Origin: Halorubrum vacuolatum
GTDB taxonomy: Archaea; Halobacteriota; Halobacteria; Halobacteriales; Haloferacaceae
Length of the DNA: 64,000 nt
Direction of reading: 5' to 3'
Assembly (NCBI RefSeq): GCF_900188065.1
Contig: NZ_FZNQ01000004.1
Span: 1 to 64,000, forward strand
Shown: one piece after another, positions 2,371 to 58,703 of the stretch
Layout: the number at the start of each line of letters is the position of its first letter
Position numbering within the stretch: the stretch's first letter is position 1
Notes under the pieces: model-generated
Databases searched by the model: none
What the model was told of the DNA's origin: nothing
What the model saw: only the letters and a program-made list of their open reading frames with translations
Position numbers and translations under genes: made by a program

Positions 2371-3531
2371 TCACCCCTCGTACGTCGCCAACCCGGCCTC
2401 GACCCGGTCGAACCCCTCCTCGATCCGCGCCGAGCTGTTCGCGAACGAGAGCCGAAGTCGCCCCCGGCCGGCCTCGCCGAAGCCGTCGCCGGGCGCGAGG
2501 ACGACGCCGTGTTCGGTGAGGAGGTGTTTCGCGAGCGGGAGGGCGTCGCCGTCGATGTCGGGATCGAGAAAGGCGTAGAAGGCCCCCTCCGGACGGGGAC
2601 ACGAGAGCCCGTCGATCGACTCGACGCGATCGACGACGAGGTCGCGGCGGCGTTTGAAGGCCCGATACATCTCCTCCGCGGGCTTCTGCGGCCCAGTGAG
2701 CGCGGCGATGGCGGCGTGCTGTGCGATGTTCGAGGCGCAGGCGGTCGTCGACTCACGGACCTTCACCACCTCATCGATCAGATGGGTGTCGCCCGCGAGC
2801 CAGCCGAGCCGCCAGCCGGTCATCGCGTAGGTCTTCGAACAGGAGCCGACCGTGAGGACGTGTTCCGGACGATCGGTGTAGCCCGCGATCGCCTCCGGCT
2901 CGCGGTCGTAGGTAAGTGCGAGGTAGACCTCATCGGCGATCACGTAGGCGTCGTGGTCGGCGGCGGCCTCGACGACGGCGCGGCAGGCGTCGGGATCGAA
3001 GACGCGGCCGGTCGGGTTCGAGGGCGTCGTCAACACGACCGCCCCCGTCTCCTCGCCCATCGCCTCGATCATCCGATCCGCGTCGAGGTCGAAGCCCGCT
3101 TCGGCGGGCATGGGGACCTCCCGGAAGCGACCATCCGCGAGGCTCGCTTGCGTCGCGTAGTTCGGCCACGTTGGGCCGGGGGCGACGACCTCCTCGCCCG
3201 GCGAGACGCTCGCGAGAACCGCGAGGTGTAACGCCTCCATCCCGCCGACGGTGACGACGATCTCCTCGCGGCCGTAGGCGACGTCGTAGTCGGCGGCGAG
3301 CCGCTCGCGGATCGCGTCGCGACACGCGGGCAGTCCGGCGTTCGAGGTGTAGCCGGTCGCACCCCCGCGAGCGGCCCGCATGGCGGCGTCGATGACGTGG
3401 TCAGGGGTGTCGAAATCCGGCTCGCCGACCTCCAGTCGGACGAGGTCGCCGTCGTGACGCTCGGCCAGATCGAACATCACGCGAATGCTCGACCGCTTCG
3501 TGCGACGGACGCGGTCGGTTGGGGTGGGCAT
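2371..3531 (-). CDS. Class I/II PLP-dependent aminotransferase
   Basis: A 386-residue fold-type I aminotransferase of the aspartate aminotransferase superfamily. Visible landmarks are TSNAGLPACRDAI in the N-terminal part, SNPTGRVF around residue 171, the PLP-binding Asp200 and Tyr203 in YVIADEVYLAL, the Schiff-base lysine Lys233 in SCSKTYAMTGWRLGW, and a C-terminal arginine in GRLRLSFANS. It is complete and of normal length. It is convergent with the hydroxyacid dehydrogenase, 30 nt apart. Which amino acid it uses cannot be told from these motifs. Confidence 0.93.
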   Translation of the reverse strand: MPTPTDRVRRTKRSSIRVMFDLAERHDGDLVRLEVGEPDFDTPDHVIDAAMRAARGGATGYTSNAGLPACRDAIRERLAADYDVAYGREEIVVTVGGMEALHLAVLASVSPGEEVVAPGPTWPNYATQASLADGRFREVPMPAEAGFDLDADRMIEAMGEETGAVVLTTPSNPTGRVFDPDACRAVVEAAADHDAYVIADEVYLALTYDREPEAIAGYTDRPEHVLTVGSCSKTYAMTGWRLGWLAGDTHLIDEVVKVRESTTACASNIAQHAAIAALTGPQKPAEEMYRAFKRRRDLVVDRVESIDGLSCPRPEGAFYAFLDPDIDGDALPLAKHLLTEHGVVLAPGDGFGEAGRGRLRLSFANSSARIEEGFDRVEAGLATYEG

Positions 3532-6243: not shown

Positions 6244-6293
6244 CGTGAGACCTCCGGTCTCACGGACCATGCGAACGGCGGCTTCGCCGCCGT
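6244..6293 (-). repeat. Paired-hairpin repeat, copy 2, at the 3' end of tnpB
   Basis: On the minus strand hairpin A is acggcggc/gccgccgt with loop gaa (6293-6275). A linker beginning tcgca follows, then hairpin B, cgtgagacc/ggtctcacg with loop gga (6264-6244). Layout matches copies at 6375 and 7781 although the stem sequences differ. The present tnpB stop codon lies inside hairpin B. Confidence 0.7.
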
Positions 6294-7561
6294 GAGCAGA
6301 TAGGGCTTCCTGCTTCCACGACGCGCTTTGCAGATACAGGTGTATCCGCAGGGAGCGCAGTCTCCACAGGCGTTAACGAATCGCGCAGCGATTCGTTCGC
6401 ACACCAGAAATCAGAGATTTCTGGGGACGTTGATTCGGAGTGTCCCACTCCTACGTCTTCGAGGCCGCGAGAAAGGATGTTCCACGCCGCATTCGCGTCC
6501 CTGTCCGCCTCAAACCCGCAGGCGGGACAGGAGTGTTCACGGACCCACAACGGCTTGTCGCTCGAAACGCCGCACGACGCGCACTCCTTGGTCGTCCCTC
6601 TCGGGTTGACTGCGACGAAGTGCGTCCCCTCCCGCTCGCACTTGTATTCGAGCAACGAGAGGAACGTTCGCCACGCGGCAGACGCCGTATTGCGGCTGTT
6701 CGACGGGCTTTCCATCATCCTCTTCACGTACAGGTCTTCGACCGCTACGAGGTCATATTCCCGAGCGTAGTACGCCGAGAGTTTGTGCAAGAAGTCGCGG
6801 CGCTTCCGGCGGAGGTCGGCGTGACACTCCGCGACCCGCCGCCGTTGATTCTCGTAGTTGTTCGACCCGTGTTGCTTCCGCGAGAGCTTCCGTTGCTCGC
6901 GCTCCAAGCGGTCGCGTTCGTCTGAGAGGTCGAGCGACCCGACCGCCGTGCCATCGGTGTCGTGGGCGTACTTGAGAATCCCCACGTCGATACCGACGCA
7001 GTTCTCGGGGTTCTCAGGCGGTTCGGGCGGTTCTCGGTCCAGTTCGACCCCGAACGTGGCGAACCACTCGCCCGTCGGTTCCTTCTTGAGCGTTACCTGC
7101 TTGAGTTTGGCGCTGTCGGGGATAGCGCGGTGGAGCCGAATCGGTATATCCGCGAGCTTCGAGAGTGACAACACAGTCTGACCGCCCTTCTTGTCGAGCT
7201 TGAAGCCAGACTGGCTGTAGGTGAAACTGCGGAACTCCCGTGGCGGCTTCCACTTGAGTTGACCGACGCCGTAGCCGTTCTCCTTGAGTTTGGAGAGTCC
7301 TTTGAGGTTGTCGAACAGGCGTTCCACGACCGTTTGGAGGACTTTCGAGTACACGTCCGAGAGGCCGTCCCACCACTTCTTGAGATCGGGTAGCTCCGAC
7401 CGGAGGGTGGTCATGGACGGTAGATCGCCGTGTTCGTCTTGGTACTCGTTGAGACGGTAGAGCGTGTGGTTGTAGAGTTGCCTACAAATGTCTCGGTGGC
7501 GGTCCAACTCCTCGCGGTGGACGCCGGACGGCTTGAGACGGTACTTGTAGGCGTAGTACAT
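6260..7561 (-). CDS. tnpB: TnpB RNA-guided nuclease / IS200-IS605 family accessory protein OrfB
   Basis: A 433-residue TnpB. Established knowledge: TnpB proteins are RNA-guided DNA nucleases using an RNA from the element's right end. Visible here are the RuvC-like catalytic residues Asp192 (GIDVGILKYA), Glu275 (LVAVEDLYVKRM) and Asp353/355 (EADRDANAAWNI), plus a zinc ribbon, CASCG at 327-331 and CPACG at 345-349. The core is therefore intact. The C-terminus is odd. Residues 379-396 (SPEISDFWCANESLRDSL) are encoded by a palindromic insertion between SEST and TPVETA. After GSP (420) the frame runs into a second palindrome and stops early; the original ending appears in another frame to about 6204. 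Confidence 0.93.
   Translation of the reverse strand: MYYAYKYRLKPSGVHREELDRHRDICRQLYNHTLYRLNEYQDEHGDLPSMTTLRSELPDLKKWWDGLSDVYSKVLQTVVERLFDNLKGLSKLKENGYGVGQLKWKPPREFRSFTYSQSGFKLDKKGGQTVLSLSKLADIPIRLHRAIPDSAKLKQVTLKKEPTGEWFATFGVELDREPPEPPENPENCVGIDVGILKYAHDTDGTAVGSLDLSDERDRLEREQRKLSRKQHGSNNYENQRRRVAECHADLRRKRRDFLHKLSAYYAREYDLVAVEDLYVKRMMESPSNSRNTASAAWRTFLSLLEYKCEREGTHFVAVNPRGTTKECASCGVSSDKPLWVREHSCPACGFEADRDANAAWNILSRGLEDVGVGHSESTSPEISDFWCANESLRDSLTPVETALPADTPVSAKRVVEAGSPICSRRRSRRSHGP
6375..6424 (+). repeat. Paired-hairpin repeat, copy 1, inserted in frame in tnpB
   Basis: Hairpin A is aacgaatcgc/gcgattcgtt (6375-6384 with 6388-6397, loop gca). A 6-nt linker cgcaca follows, then hairpin B, ccagaaatc/gatttctgg (6404-6412 with 6416-6424, loop aga). 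Both stems are perfect. The unit is bounded by cgt on each side (6371-6373 and 6428-6430), consistent with a 57-nt insertion that keeps the tnpB frame. Confidence 0.75.
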
Positions 7562-7565
7562 GACG

Positions 7566-7685
7566 CTACTCGTGTTTCTCGATGTACTCGTCAAGTCGCT
7601 CTCGGATGAACGACGAGAGATTGAGGTGGTGTTCCTGAACCCACTCGTGTTGGTCTTCTCGGAGCGTGATTGTGGTCCGTTTCAT
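7566..7685 (-). CDS. Small ribbon-helix-helix-like protein preceding TnpB
   Basis: A 39-residue ORF starting MKRTTITLREDQHEWVQEHH and ending in a helix rich in Arg and Glu, the shape of a minimal CopG/Arc-type ribbon-helix-helix DNA-binding domain. It ends 4 nt before the tnpB start, so the two are probably co-transcribed. An aatattttt TATA box near 7709-7717 is about 27 nt before its ATG. It may regulate the element; that is inference. Confidence 0.7.
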   Translation of the reverse strand: MKRTTITLREDQHEWVQEHHLNLSSFIRERLDEYIEKHE

Positions 7686-9449: not shown

Positions 9450-9514
9450 CTTTTTTCATACTCATATAGATGTCGGTGGCATGGTCGTTCAACTCGCAGG
9501 CTGATCCTCACACC

Positions 9515-9688
9515 CAGCCCTCCCCAGCCACACTCTCCTCCGCCTCAGCCCTCCCCAGCCACGCTCTCCTCCGCCTCAGCCCTCCCCAGCCTCGTTCGGG
9601 CGGGCCGCCGAGCGGTCCGGCGGCCCGCCCGAACTCCCTCGCACGCGCTCCTCGCACCCGGTGGGCGCTCGGAGGCGCGCGCCGACCG
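9515..9688 (+). repeat. GC-rich structured repeat, copy 1
   Basis: It begins with two full and one partial copies of a 31-bp unit (9515-9545, 9546-9576, then 9577 on). A 16-bp perfect stem follows (9595-9610 with 9618-9633; inner half gggccgccg/cggcggccc; 7-nt loop agcggtc). Then come actccctcgc and a second weaker GC hairpin ending at gcgccgaccg. The same modules occur at 18019-18154 (inverted) and 42036-42156. Confidence 0.8.
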
Positions 9689-16916: not shown

Positions 16917-17882
16917 TTAGATCGACCTCGCTTTGATCAGCGCGCTCTCAACGTCGACCGGACCGGGTTCCTCCTGCTCGTCGACGAGCACGTAGCGCCC
17001 GAAGGTGGGGCCGGTCACCCGGTAGTAGCGGCCGAGGATATCCCCGGCCATCTCCTCGGCGACGACGGTCGTATCGAGCGCGTCCATCGCCATCTCCTTC
17101 GCCTCCGCGAGCGTCATCCCGGTGAGCTCCTCGGTCGCCTCGCGGTCGAAGATGACCTCCGTGACGGTGCGGCCGTCATCGAGGACGCCTTTGATCCGGA
17201 GGTCGAACTCGCCTTCGACCTGACCGTGTTCGGAGCACCGGCCGTTCTGGAGGACGCGGGTGCAGTCCTCCTCGGGACAGCGTTTGATAAGCCCGGAGCC
17301 GGACTGGATGTCGACGAGCGCGCCCTCGACGGTTTCGGCGTTGTCGCCGACCTCGATCGCCTCGTCGATCTCGGTGATCGTGGTGGTCCGGTTGAGTTTG
17401 ACCGAGTATCGGCCCTCGTATTCATCGGTGACGACGTTCGAGAGCCGATAGGACGCCCCTTCCTCCAGTTTCGGGAGTTCGGAGGTCTCGAAGGCGACGA
17501 ACTTGATCGTCCCCGACTCGTCGCCGAGCAACCCGACCTGTGAGATGGAATCGCTGCGCGGCTCCCAGAGGTCGACCAGCTTCACGCGGAGGTCGACCCA
17601 CTGCTCGTCCCGATCGATGTCGTTGACGAGCACCTGTTCGCTCCCGCCGCGGCCGATCTCGTCGCGATCCATGCCGGCGTCGTCGAGGTAGCTGTTCGTG
17701 ACGCTCCGGCGCGCCTCGTCGAGTGGGACGCGGTATTCGTTGACGAGGTTTTCGAGTCGCCCTTCGACCTCGTCGGCGTCGACGTTCAGATGGTCCGAGA
17801 ACTGTTCCGCTATCGCTTCCGCTTCCTGTCGCAGTTCGCTCATGGGTGTCTCTGCCTCCGGTCGTGTTTCAATGGGAGGCAT
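16917..17882 (-). CDS. rpa3: Replication protein A (single-stranded DNA-binding), RPA3-like
   Basis: A 321-residue RPA. Residues 14-70 are a helical N-terminal domain (QFSDHLNVDADEVEGRLENL). OB folds follow (VDLRVKLVDLWEPRSDSISQ and later blocks), with a zinc finger formed by CPEEDC and CSEHG (the motif begins KRCPEEDCTRVLQNGRC). It binds ssDNA during replication and repair. Two starts are possible: the ATG at 17882, which is 27 nt from a TATA box and so fits leaderless initiation, or the ATG at 17843 (MSELRQEAEA), where strong homology begins. I prefer the former. Confidence 0.92.
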   Translation of the reverse strand: MPPIETRPEAETPMSELRQEAEAIAEQFSDHLNVDADEVEGRLENLVNEYRVPLDEARRSVTNSYLDDAGMDRDEIGRGGSEQVLVNDIDRDEQWVDLRVKLVDLWEPRSDSISQVGLLGDESGTIKFVAFETSELPKLEEGASYRLSNVVTDEYEGRYSVKLNRTTTITEIDEAIEVGDNAETVEGALVDIQSGSGLIKRCPEEDCTRVLQNGRCSEHGQVEGEFDLRIKGVLDDGRTVTEVIFDREATEELTGMTLAEAKEMAMDALDTTVVAEEMAGDILGRYYRVTGPTFGRYVLVDEQEEPGPVDVESALIKARSI

Positions 17883-17903: not shown

Positions 17904-17911
17904 TATTAAAA
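17904..17911 (-). promoter_or_regulatory. TATA box of the rpa3-rpap3 operon
   Basis: On the minus strand ttttaata is centred about 26 nt before the ATG at 17882, which favours that start. Confidence 0.55.
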
Positions 17912-18018
17912 GGTATGTGAGCGCGGTGGAAGTGGTCTGCACGCGGGTGATCACGGGACGGTAGCGGGGGTCAGTCGATCGGCCATGGACGATCGCCGCG
18001 ATCCGCCACTTCCACCGC

Positions 18019-18154
18019 GGTCGGCGCGGTCCGGCGAGCGCCTTTATAAGGCGCGAGCCGAGCGCGAGGGAGTTCCGACGGGCCGCCGAGCAGTCCGGCG
18101 GCCCGTCGGGACGAGGCTGGGGAGGGCTGAGGTTGCAGAGAGCGAGGCTGGGGA
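18019..18154 (-). repeat. GC-rich structured repeat, copy 3 (inverted)
   Basis: Stem 18073-18088 pairs with 18096-18111 (16 bp; one G-T wobble as read on the plus strand; 7-nt loop). It shares the gggccgccg/cggcggccc core. On the minus strand it has the same left module (cagccctccccagcctcgt, preceded by part of a second copy of the 31-bp unit) and right module (ctccctcgcgc, then gcgccttataaaggcgc). It fills most of the 325-nt gap between the rpa3 promoter and the next gene. Confidence 0.8.
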
Positions 18155-18207: not shown

Positions 18208-18696
18208 TCACTCCGACGCGTTGCGCGCGGTGTACGCCGCGAGCGCGGCCTCGATCGCATCGAGCGAACGGTTCACGCGGGAATCGGCGACCCGCATGAA
18301 TCCGGGCGTGTAGGTGGCCGAATAGTCGAAGATACGATTGACCCCACGCTTGGGGACGCTGATCGGCTCGAACGACTCGATCGTATAAATACGGGTGGCG
18401 GGGAACGCCGTCCAGAAGGTCCCGCTTGCCCAGCGATCCTCGTCCTCGAAAGTGGTGCCGACGCGCCCGCTCGCGACGTATCGCTCGTCGTGATAGAACA
18501 GCAGAAGATCCCCCGCGGCCATCCGCTCGAACGTCGACCCGTTCCCGCTGTCGTCGGCGACCGCCCACAGCCGCGCCTCCTCGGCGTTCGCGAGCGGCTC
18601 CGGCCGGTTGGGATAGTCCGTGAGGTCGACCGGCGACCGCACGGTTCGATCGAAGTTCTCCGGGTTCACGGGGATCAGGAAGACGTTCTGACTCAT
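18208..18696 (-). CDS. EVE/PUA-like domain protein
   Basis: A 162-residue stand-alone protein that looks like an EVE or PUA-like fold: MSQNVFLIPVNPENFDRTV, then a Trp-containing strand (RLWAVADDSG), ERMAAGDLLLFYHDERYVAS, and GRVG followed by an acidic turn and Trp. Related folds bind modified bases or RNA, and in haloarchaea such domains often accompany restriction or modification proteins. No restriction gene is adjacent here. Fold assignment is from pattern only, so function is uncertain. Confidence 0.6.
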   Translation of the reverse strand: MSQNVFLIPVNPENFDRTVRSPVDLTDYPNRPEPLANAEEARLWAVADDSGNGSTFERMAAGDLLLFYHDERYVASGRVGTTFEDEDRWASGTFWTAFPATRIYTIESFEPISVPKRGVNRIFDYSATYTPGFMRVADSRVNRSLDAIEAALAAYTARNASE

Positions 18697-41959: not shown

Positions 41960-42234
41960 CGGCGAGGGCAGGGACGGGCGGGGAGTCGGGGGAGTTGCGC
42001 GTGGGGGCTGTCCCCCGTCGGCCCCGGGCCGTCGTAGCCTCGGCCCTCCCCAGCCTCGTTGCGACGGGCCGCCGGAGCACTCGGCGGCCCGTCGCAACTC
42101 CCTCGCGCGTCTCTCCTCGCGCCTTTAAAAAGGCGCTCGGAGGCGCGCGCCGACCGGGAGGGGTCGGTGGACCATCGACCGGCGAGGTTCGTCCGAAGCG
42201 GAAGTCTCGTTAGGTCGGGCGGAGGAGACCGGGT
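41960..42234. other. Intergenic region with GC-rich repeat, upstream of gpmI
   Basis: No gene is visible between the ArsR start and gpmI. Besides repeat copy 2 the region contains a ggggg...ccccc hairpin (about 42003-42016). A weak TATA-like tcgttagg near 42208 sits 27 nt before the gpmI start. Confidence 0.5.
42036..42156 (+). repeat. GC-rich structured repeat, copy 2
   Basis: Left module cggccctccccagcctcgt, a 16-bp perfect stem (42059-42074 with 42082-42097, 7-nt loop gagcact), then ctccctcgcgcg and a second hairpin gcgcc/ggcgc around tttaaaaa, ending gcgcgcgccgaccg. The inner half of the stem is identical to copies 1 and 3; outer pairs differ with complementarity kept. Confidence 0.8.
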
Positions 42235-43764
42235 ATGGATGCGGCGCTCATCGTGCTGGACGGCTGGGGGCTCGGCGATCACGACCGACGGGACGCGGTA
42301 CGGGGGGCCGACACGCCCACGTTCGATGGGGTCGCCGAACGGGGCGCATACGGCGAACTCGTGGTTCACGGCCGGCGCGTCGGGCTGCCGGACGGACAGA
42401 TGGGCAACTCGGAGGTGGGCCACCTCAACATCGGCGCCGGGCGCGTCGTGAAACAGTCCTACACGCGGATCGTCGACGCGCTTGCGGACGGCTCCTTCGC
42501 CGAGAACGAGGCGCTCGCCTCGGCGTTCGAGCACGCCGCGGCGACCGGCGGCCGCGTCCACTTCATGGGGCTGGTCTCGGACGGCGGGGTCCACTCCGAC
42601 ATCGCCCACCTCAAGGCGCTCATCGACGCCGCCGCGACGGCGGACGTGCCCGCGACGACCCACGCGTTCACCGACGGCCGCGACACCGCCCCGAAGATCG
42701 CCGACGGCTTCCTCGAGGAGATCGAGGCACACGCGGCTCAGCGGGGCACCGGCGAGGTCGCCACCGTGATGGGCCGATACATCGCGATGGACCGTGACGA
42801 GAACTGGGACCGTACGAAGCGGGCCGTTGACGCCATCGTCGAGCGCGAGACACCACACGAGGCGGCCTCGGCGGTCGAGGCGGCCCGGGAGGCACACGCC
42901 CGCGGCGAGACGGACGAGTTCATCGAGCCGACGCGGATCACGGGCGGTCGCGCGCTCGAAGACGGCGATGCGGTCGTCTTCTTCAACTTCAGGGCCGACC
43001 GGGCGCGCCAGCTCGTCCGAATGTTGACCGACACGGATCCGACATGGGGGGTCGCCGTCGACGCACCCGATATCGAGCTGGTGACGATGACCGAATACGA
43101 CGAGACCTACACGTTCCCGGTCGCGTTCCCGCCGACGATCCCCGAGGACACGATCGGGGAGGTCGTCTCCGAGGCGGGGCTGACGCAACTGCGGATCGCG
43201 GAGTCCGAAAAGTATCCGCACGTCACCTACTTCCTCAACGGCGGTCGCGAGGTGAAGTTCCCCGGCGAGAAACGCGAGATAATCAAAAGTCCCGGCGTGC
43301 CGACGTACGATCTGCAGCCGGAGATGTCGGCGCCGGAACTCACCGACGCGGCGATCCGGATCATCGAGGGGGAAGATCCCTCGCTCGTCGTGTTAAATTA
43401 CGCGAACCCCGATATGGTCGGACACACCGGCGACTACGAGGCGGCCATCGAGGCCGTCGAGGCAGTCGACACGCAGCTCGGCCGGCTGCTCGAAGCCGTC
43501 GCCGAGGCGGGCGGCGAGGCGGTCGTCACCGCCGATCACGGCAACGCGGACGACATGGGCACGCCCGAGGATCCACACACCGCCCACTCGTTCAATCCGG
43601 TCCCGTTTATCAGCCTGACGCCAGCCGGTGACGACGGCGGCCGGTCGATCCGCGAGGACGGCTCGCTGTGTGACGTCGCGCCGACGGTCCTCAAGCTGAT
43701 GGGGATCGAACAGCCGGCGGCGATGACCGGCGAGAGCCTGATAGAGTATTCGAGTGACGAGTGA
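42235..43764 (+). CDS. gpmI: 2,3-bisphosphoglycerate-independent phosphoglycerate mutase
   Basis: A 509-residue metal-dependent enzyme interconverting 3- and 2-phosphoglycerate. The alkaline-phosphatase-fold start is MDAALIVLDGWGLGDHDRRD. The phosphoserine nucleophile is in LPDGQMGNSEVGHLNIGAGR, and later metal ligands lie in NYANPDMVGHTGDYE and VVTADHGNADDMG, with the last His in DPHTAHSFNPVPF. Normal length. The message may be leaderless or may begin far upstream and include the GC-rich repeat. Confidence 0.96.
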   Translation: MDAALIVLDGWGLGDHDRRDAVRGADTPTFDGVAERGAYGELVVHGRRVGLPDGQMGNSEVGHLNIGAGRVVKQSYTRIVDALADGSFAENEALASAFEHAAATGGRVHFMGLVSDGGVHSDIAHLKALIDAAATADVPATTHAFTDGRDTAPKIADGFLEEIEAHAAQRGTGEVATVMGRYIAMDRDENWDRTKRAVDAIVERETPHEAASAVEAAREAHARGETDEFIEPTRITGGRALEDGDAVVFFNFRADRARQLVRMLTDTDPTWGVAVDAPDIELVTMTEYDETYTFPVAFPPTIPEDTIGEVVSEAGLTQLRIAESEKYPHVTYFLNGGREVKFPGEKREIIKSPGVPTYDLQPEMSAPELTDAAIRIIEGEDPSLVVLNYANPDMVGHTGDYEAAIEAVEAVDTQLGRLLEAVAEAGGEAVVTADHGNADDMGTPEDPHTAHSFNPVPFISLTPAGDDGGRSIREDGSLCDVAPTVLKLMGIEQPAAMTGESLIEYSSDE

Positions 43765-58330: not shown

Positions 58331-58703
58331 GGCGGACAGAGGGAGCCCGACTCCCGTGCATCCGCATGAGGAAAGTCCCCCCACCGGCCGGACGGGCGAC
58401 CGGGCTCACGCCCGGAGTCGGAGACGGCTGGCGCTGGAACAGCAACGAGACCCCCCGCCCCGACCGATGAGGTGCGTCAGGTCGCCATCGGCGACCGGCG
58501 ACGTCCGTAGCCTCGCTATGGCCGTGCGAACCGACTCGTAAGAGGAGGGAGCTAACCCACCGAGGGCCCACGACGGGCGGGAACGGATGGAACGGCGAAT
58601 CCTCGCCGGTGCAAGTCCGTGCCATCAGGTAGTCCGGCCACGGCGCGGACGCTGAGCCGAATGTCGGGACGAACCGAAGGGGGCTTACTCCCCTCAGTCC
58701 AGC
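58331..58703 (+). ncRNA. rnpB: RNase P RNA component
   Basis: Archaeal type-A RNase P RNA, the catalytic RNA that matures tRNA 5' ends. Conserved region I is gaggaaagtcc at 58368-58378. The matching conserved region V, accgaagggggctta (58673-58687), fits the ACNGAANNNGGCUUA consensus; together they form the P4 helix. ggac at 58334-58337 can pair with gtcc near 58697-58700 as the terminal helix, and gggag/ctccc (58341-58354) is a local hairpin. Ends are estimates, supported on the 5' side by the TATA box. Confidence 0.95.

Follow-up and report, generated by a model that had tools for sequence, protein, structure and literature searches.

The hairpin-bearing sequence at positions 18019-18154 of the window (the 64,000 nucleotides of Halorubrum vacuolatum contig NZ_FZNQ01000004.1 analysed here) is one of many copies of a repeat that lies between genes and in which near-invariant boxes surround hairpins that stay paired although their letters vary. 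At one and the same site, the element is present in some genomes, missing in others, and retained in many. We read it, with a probability of roughly 45%, as a dispersed, non-coding intergenic repeat of haloarchaea whose hairpins would be formed by a DNA single strand, recognised by a protein, and exchanged among copies.

Repeat copies in the Halorubrum vacuolatum window

The preliminary description of this DNA had placed an inverted copy of a GC-rich repeat at 18019-18154, and the comparison with the other two window copies bore this out, with inverted-repeat pairs at 9552-9647/18059-18154 (82% complementary) and 18062-18132/42038-42108 (90%). Stem pairing in this copy was assigned by eye (Table 1). 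The P1 stem does contain the one non-Watson-Crick pair that had been claimed, T18074/G18110, which reads as U-G on the plus strand and as A-C on the minus strand. In the following, R denotes the plus-type strand (plus in the 18019-18154 copy) and F the minus-type strand (minus in that copy). The AT-rich stretch meant as the TATA region next to the repeat (~17905-17913) is present, but it lies ~110 bp from the repeat copy and probably serves the minus-strand rpa gene as its promoter. No TATA-like box occurs in the 60 nt before position 18023 on the plus strand, and when the sequences were read, none was found at the element ends of the window copies; the third hairpin module described below is absent from all three of them.

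Table 1. Repeat copies, their parts, and neighbouring genes in the window.
Feature	Position	Strand	Basis
Element core of the 18019-18154 copy: GGCGCGG, P2, box, P1, box	18023..18132	+	bounds from copy comparison
Hairpin P2: CGGC-GA-GCGCC...GGCGC-GA-GCCG; internal loop GA/GA on plus, TC/TC on minus	18032..18060	+	letters
Box CGCGAGGGA between P2 and P1	18063..18071	+	invariant or nearly so in 41-sequence alignment
Minus-strand reading of 18063-18072: CTCCCTCGCG	18063..18072	-	
Hairpin P1: 17 pairs, 7-nt loop, single T-G pair 18074/18110	18072..18112	+	
Box GAGGCTGGGGAGGGCTGAGG (minus: CCTCAGCCCTCCCCAGCCTC) after P1	18113..18132	+	alignment and letters
Partial duplicate of box GAGGCTGGGGAGGGCTGAGG	18141..18154	+	
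First window copy, orientation opposite to the 18019-18154 copy	9552..9647	-	inverted-repeat pair
Third window copy, located upstream of an iPGM gene (42235-43764)	42038..42139	-	
Replication factor A-type gene (rpa3 of the preliminary description)	16917..17843	-	NCBIfam PRK07217, E = 1.4e-145
Gene on the other flank of the 18019-18154 copy, without a family match	18208..18696	-	

Pfam gave no match for the replication factor A-type gene. Three tandem repeats of a 31-bp unit with a CCTCCCCAGCC-type box (9505-9597) precede the first window copy, and a TnpB-type gene (6260-7594, PF07282 match at 6476-6673) lies ~2 kb from it. The window also contains an archaeal RNase P RNA gene (58335-58699, 157.6 bits).

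Copy number and phylogenetic spread

Only three copies had been claimed for this DNA, a number that falls far short. With the 18019-18154 copy as query, BLAST located 31 places in the same genome (E <= 0.01), among them half copies and palindromic self-matches, a number well beyond chance, and 26 copies were cut out with a loose expression applied to the BLAST places and pattern matches. The exact two-box pattern matched this genome 13 times, compared to 0 for the reversed pattern. All 30 sampled genomes of the genus contain the exact pattern (4 to 106 matches per genome), as do 42 of the 148 sampled at family level, with the reversed control giving 0 in each; in the richest genome, G135, a shorter pattern matched 122 times. 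At least 117 stretches match in the contigs of named genomes, and among the 80 matches listed, 75 are labelled Halorubrum and the others uncultured archaeon, Halorussus (two), Halobellus, and Haloprofundus.

A covariance model built from 41 copies, with up to 10 matches counted per genome, identified the repeat in 108 of the 391 genomes sampled across the class, comprising 46 of the same genus and 62 from 27 other genera. A fuller model search of twelve of these 62 genomes gave 1 to 103 matches each (E <= 0.01, these E-values being rough). Among 72,556 plasmid records, three matched a hand-composed query and none matched the window copy. BLAST gave 0 matches in phage records, and the exact two-box pattern 0 in a viral contig collection. 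Searched against Rfam at gathering scores, the window matched RNase P only, and six repeat loci at E <= 1 returned only one tRNA and a weak overlapping match. No published description of the repeat was found in the literature searched, outside which most subscription journals lie, and the repeat may already be described in print.

Architecture of the repeat family

In an alignment of 41 copies, picked for a simple P1 (from 48 of 121 eligible), two boxes are near-invariant and both hairpins are variable. The boxes framing the hairpins are purine-rich on R. Changes on both sides of a pair occur in 17 of 23 pairs, and the covariation score is 0.386, versus 0.134 in shuffles and 0.028-0.081 with the pairing partners slid; a conserved DNA hairpin would be expected to give this result just as a structured RNA would. 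P2 often has a 2x2 internal loop, and of the 103 P2 hairpins with such a loop, 85 read TC/TC on F and GA/GA on R; 81 of 184 copies have no P2 of this exact form, and the GA/GA loop is mostly missing in the copies from other genera among those listed. Many of the copy sets mix copies of the genus with a few from other genera, and from one set, 6 of 189 copies were dropped before counting.

A third hairpin module, framed by the boxes CTCCAAAGCCCCAG and CTGCCCCTTTGAG, lies within 200 nt of the core in 185 of 261 cores and is joined to it by a linker that is C-rich on F. Its stem varies in pairs, with C-G in 88 and T-A in 35 cases at one position. We considered and rejected an autonomous parent that would carry a gene between the core and this module, as only 2 further cores have the module at a greater distance and 74 have none in 5 kb or in the examined DNA. 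In L493 (~2911-3139, reverse strand), five third-module boxes follow each other with an exact period of 57 bp, and TATA-bearing third-module units stand in tandem ahead of several elements.

Within the genus, many copies have a TATA-like box at each end, so that the earlier argument from module order in favour of the minus strand was not confirmed. On the plus-type strand, 81 of 155 anchored copies contain a TATA-like box in the 60 nt before the core (28 of 183 copies were left out for want of an anchor). Such boxes are also found between convergent genes, at the right end in 14 of 17 and at the left end in 10 of 15 cases (800-kb sample of one genome). As the neighbouring genes need no promoter in these regions, we read the boxes as parts of the element. 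On the side of the third module, 125 sites have a TATA within 70 nt of the CCAAAG box, and in 92 of these the box lies 37-38 nt from the TATA start; 112 of 237 CCAAAG boxes have no TATA inside that range.

Copies from other genera were read in 80 loci of three genomes, in which 79 cores were found. In many copies of the G259 and G267 loci, the boxes are followed on R by a run of GCGGT-type repeats and then by a CTAGC-bearing motif (e.g. CGGCAGTAGCTAGC), possibly a further module outside the genus.

Position between genes and turnover at orthologous sites

None of 185 cores overlaps a gene in our own gene calling. In 800 kb of one genome, 56 copies lie in 54 intergenic regions and 1 of 57 matches falls in a called gene, probably by chance, judging by its letters. 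The element occupies 16 of 122 convergent, 6 of 124 divergent (p = 0.026), and 32 of 352 tandem regions in this sample. Between tandem genes, the two orientations occur 17 and 16 times, and a terminator or leader was rejected on this lack of preference. In an earlier context count, convergent regions made up 69 of 163 regions with the element versus 83 of 339 control regions from the same loci, which seemed to indicate a strong bias toward gene 3' ends; the bias is weaker in the 800-kb sample. An apparent strand polarity along one chromosome among the matches listed was set aside as an effect of the listing.

The element lies upstream of the rpa gene, always in the same orientation, in 8 of 12 genomes of the genus, including H. 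vacuolatum itself, and the letters of P1 differ in each of these eight sites; in the other four, it is absent from the examined flank. The third window copy has no counterpart before the orthologous gene in any of the 29 other genomes read (38 matched), one of which has a box further away and in the opposite orientation. At one site of G135, the 30 genomes read (37 matched) comprise 14 with the element (P2 being replaced in two of these), one with a remnant, 10 with only 43-104 nt, and one with an unclear 851-nt stretch, while in L463, L464, L467, and L473, another sequence of ~410 nt, perhaps a small gene, replaces the element. These states were judged by reading the sequences, since the automatic flag over-calls. 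In L477 and L459, other palindromes (CGCCGGCG...GCCAGAGGGACC) stand in place of P2 and its box, as if haloarchaeal palindromes had been inserted into one another. The empty orthologous sites are too diverged for the junction to be read.

Among 10 P1 hairpins from the 14 occupied orthologues of the G135 site, the median identities of each to its orthologues are 0.57-0.66. A paralogue in G135 is a better match than any orthologue for 5 of the 10, an equal match for 1, and a worse one for 4, a result that is only suggestive because the paralogues compared outnumber the orthologues (57 vs. 9). Exchange of hairpins between copies would be the simplest reading of these sequence comparisons.

Mismatch spectrum and folding energy of the two strands

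Mismatches were counted in hairpins unique by their letters, and only where isolated. On R, the raw numbers of G-U versus A-C mismatches are 19:8 in P1, 10:4 in P2, and 31:13 in the third module, amounting to 60:25 (p = 0.0002 if independent). Of the 31 G-U pairs in the third module, 26 share one stem position and are thus inherited or copied, so these counts are not independent. When only distinct contexts are considered, the ratios are 12:7, 8:4, and 8:11, respectively, with a sum of 28:22 (p = 0.48), and three genomes of other genera gave 4:3 (P1 3:1, P2 1:2). As a control, the acceptor and T stems of 43 unique tRNAs from the examined loci, recounted by position because a bracket count may hide A-C pairs, contain 19:2. 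In distinct contexts, the element departs from the tRNAs (Fisher, p = 0.006), but in raw counts the difference is not clear (p = 0.09). G-U pairs on R make up 17 of 1592 P1 pairs (1.1%) versus 51 of 941 tRNA pairs (5.4%) and are thus fivefold rarer, which could reflect young, recently copied hairpins.

The preliminary description had taken the single wobble pair as a pointer to the plus strand. Its polarity recurs across the family in the raw counts but not in the distinct contexts, and the plus-strand reading stands as a hint; as proof of strand, we rejected wobble polarity on the latter counts. Folding energy, which makes the plus-type strand the stabler one in 231 of 233 copies (mean difference 7.2 kcal/mol), was likewise rejected as proof. 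Compared to its own shuffles, the plus-type strand is not stabler (mean z -3.7 vs. -4.2, 60 copies), so the energy gap is largely one of composition.

A DNA or an RNA hairpin

In our preferred reading, the hairpins would form in single-stranded DNA that becomes exposed during replication or recombination or by cruciform extrusion. A putative protein may recognise the boxes together with the hairpin shape on this strand, the arms would serve purely as shape, and recombination anchored in the boxes may swap hairpins between copies, as the pattern of variation suggests. We consider a DNA single strand slightly to somewhat more likely than RNA to be the hairpin former because the distinct mismatches lack the G-U preference seen in tRNAs, and the low share of G-U pairs also counts for DNA. 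Against the DNA reading, the TATA-like boxes at fixed distance, also between convergent genes, suggest that the element is transcribed, the GA/GA loop and the raw wobble excess point to one used strand, which RNA would easily explain, and no protein partner was found. The TATA boxes thus speak for transcription and the mismatch spectrum rather for DNA. The two-sided covariation, the boxes between convergent genes, the GA/GA loop on R, and the raw excess of 60:25 would also fit a multi-copy structured small RNA that is transcribed from the plus-type strand from its own TATA box, with P2 before P1, and acts in trans or on a protein, an alternative that we regard as tentative and yet worth serious consideration. 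However, the distinct mismatches (28:22) and the few G-U pairs argue against it, as does the position of the promoter: halovirus HF2 promoters are reported to have a TATA starting at -26 (PMC8707807), and at this spacing, transcription would start ~6-9 nt inside the conserved GGCGCG arm. Furthermore, the box is missing at the 18019-18154 copy and not evident at this place in most copies from other genera among those listed, the GA/GA loop is no general feature beyond the genus, and neither the window nor the six loci yielded an Rfam family for the repeat. That the family represents a new haloarchaeal class of structured RNA, with up to ~100 copies per genome, promoters at both ends, exchanged hairpin letters, and boxes fixed throughout the class, appears somewhat doubtful. 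Transcription of the minus-type strand from the TATA before the third module, through its hairpin, P1, and P2, is improbable: although the 37-38 nt spacing would put the start just before the hairpin and tandem copies of the TATA unit exist, 112 of 237 CCAAAG boxes lack a TATA within 70 nt, that strand reads TC/TC in the internal loop, and the three window copies have no third module.

Two further explanations place the repeat among mobile or regulatory DNA. As high-copy, heterogeneous intergenic palindromes with conserved short flanks, the copies resemble the palindrome-associated elements (PATEs) of Haloquadratum (PMC3119063) and could be PATEs mobilised by an IS605-type transposase, or REPs of a REP-associated tyrosine transposase. 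A Y1 transposase match was found in 5 of 6 genomes searched, but G259, a draft of 80 contigs with 103 model matches to the repeat, has none (E <= 0.001). Of 39 loci around TnpA/TnpB matches, only 4 contain an element-like core somewhere in ~3 kb, and the element is frequent in any case; the flanking boxes have no GTAG, the invariant flanks of P1 being GAGGGA and GAGG. Such an origin is accordingly quite unlikely. The excess in convergent over divergent regions might be cited for a role in cis, as a regulator or transcription insulator of the adjacent genes, but such a role is very unlikely: orientation between tandem genes shows no preference, most convergent regions are without the element, and avoidance of promoters explains the convergent bias.

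A repeat that occurs in all genomes sampled from one genus, often in dozens of copies, and in genera scattered through the whole class must either carry a cost or serve a purpose. Since its hairpins vary and its boxes stay constant, every genome offers a natural mutagenesis series. The counts also call for caution, as one G-U pair is poor evidence of strand and jointly inherited copies inflate such counts.

Comparison with known repeat systems

Bacterial REP/BIME and REPIN sequences are high-copy intergenic palindromes with conserved flanking letters, and REP elements have a GTAG-type tetranucleotide beside the hairpin. The haloarchaeal repeat is likewise a high-copy intergenic palindrome with conserved flanking letters. 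In contrast to these systems, it has no GTAG in its boxes, a Y1 match is lacking in the many-copy genome G259, and each element combines two to three different hairpins with near-free letters and TATA boxes at the ends. With the PATEs and small mobile repeats of Haloquadratum (PMC3119063), it shares a haloarchaeal host, the lack of a transposase of its own, and a palindromic, heterogeneous build, but it differs in its scattered genera and its retention at orthologous sites, and no link to IS605-type elements was found. PATEs derive from IS605-type transposons, share their ends, and have neither a target duplication nor terminal inverted repeats. The repeat thus resembles REP and PATE as an intergenic hairpin repeat, while membership in either group fails on the transposase and on shared ends.

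The intergenic promoter repeats of HF2 (PMC8707807) are similarly short, contain a TATA box, lie between genes, and belong to a Halorubrum system. Unlike the repeat studied here, they are viral, whereas our two-box pattern and BLAST searches gave 0 matches in viral contigs and phages. A different kind of likeness is offered by STAXI, a covarying motif that (PMC2864571) forms pseudoknots, unlike our repeat, and to which we claim no sequence link. Both systems show covariation, and the authors of that study weighed the same choice between single-stranded DNA and RNA that the present repeat poses.
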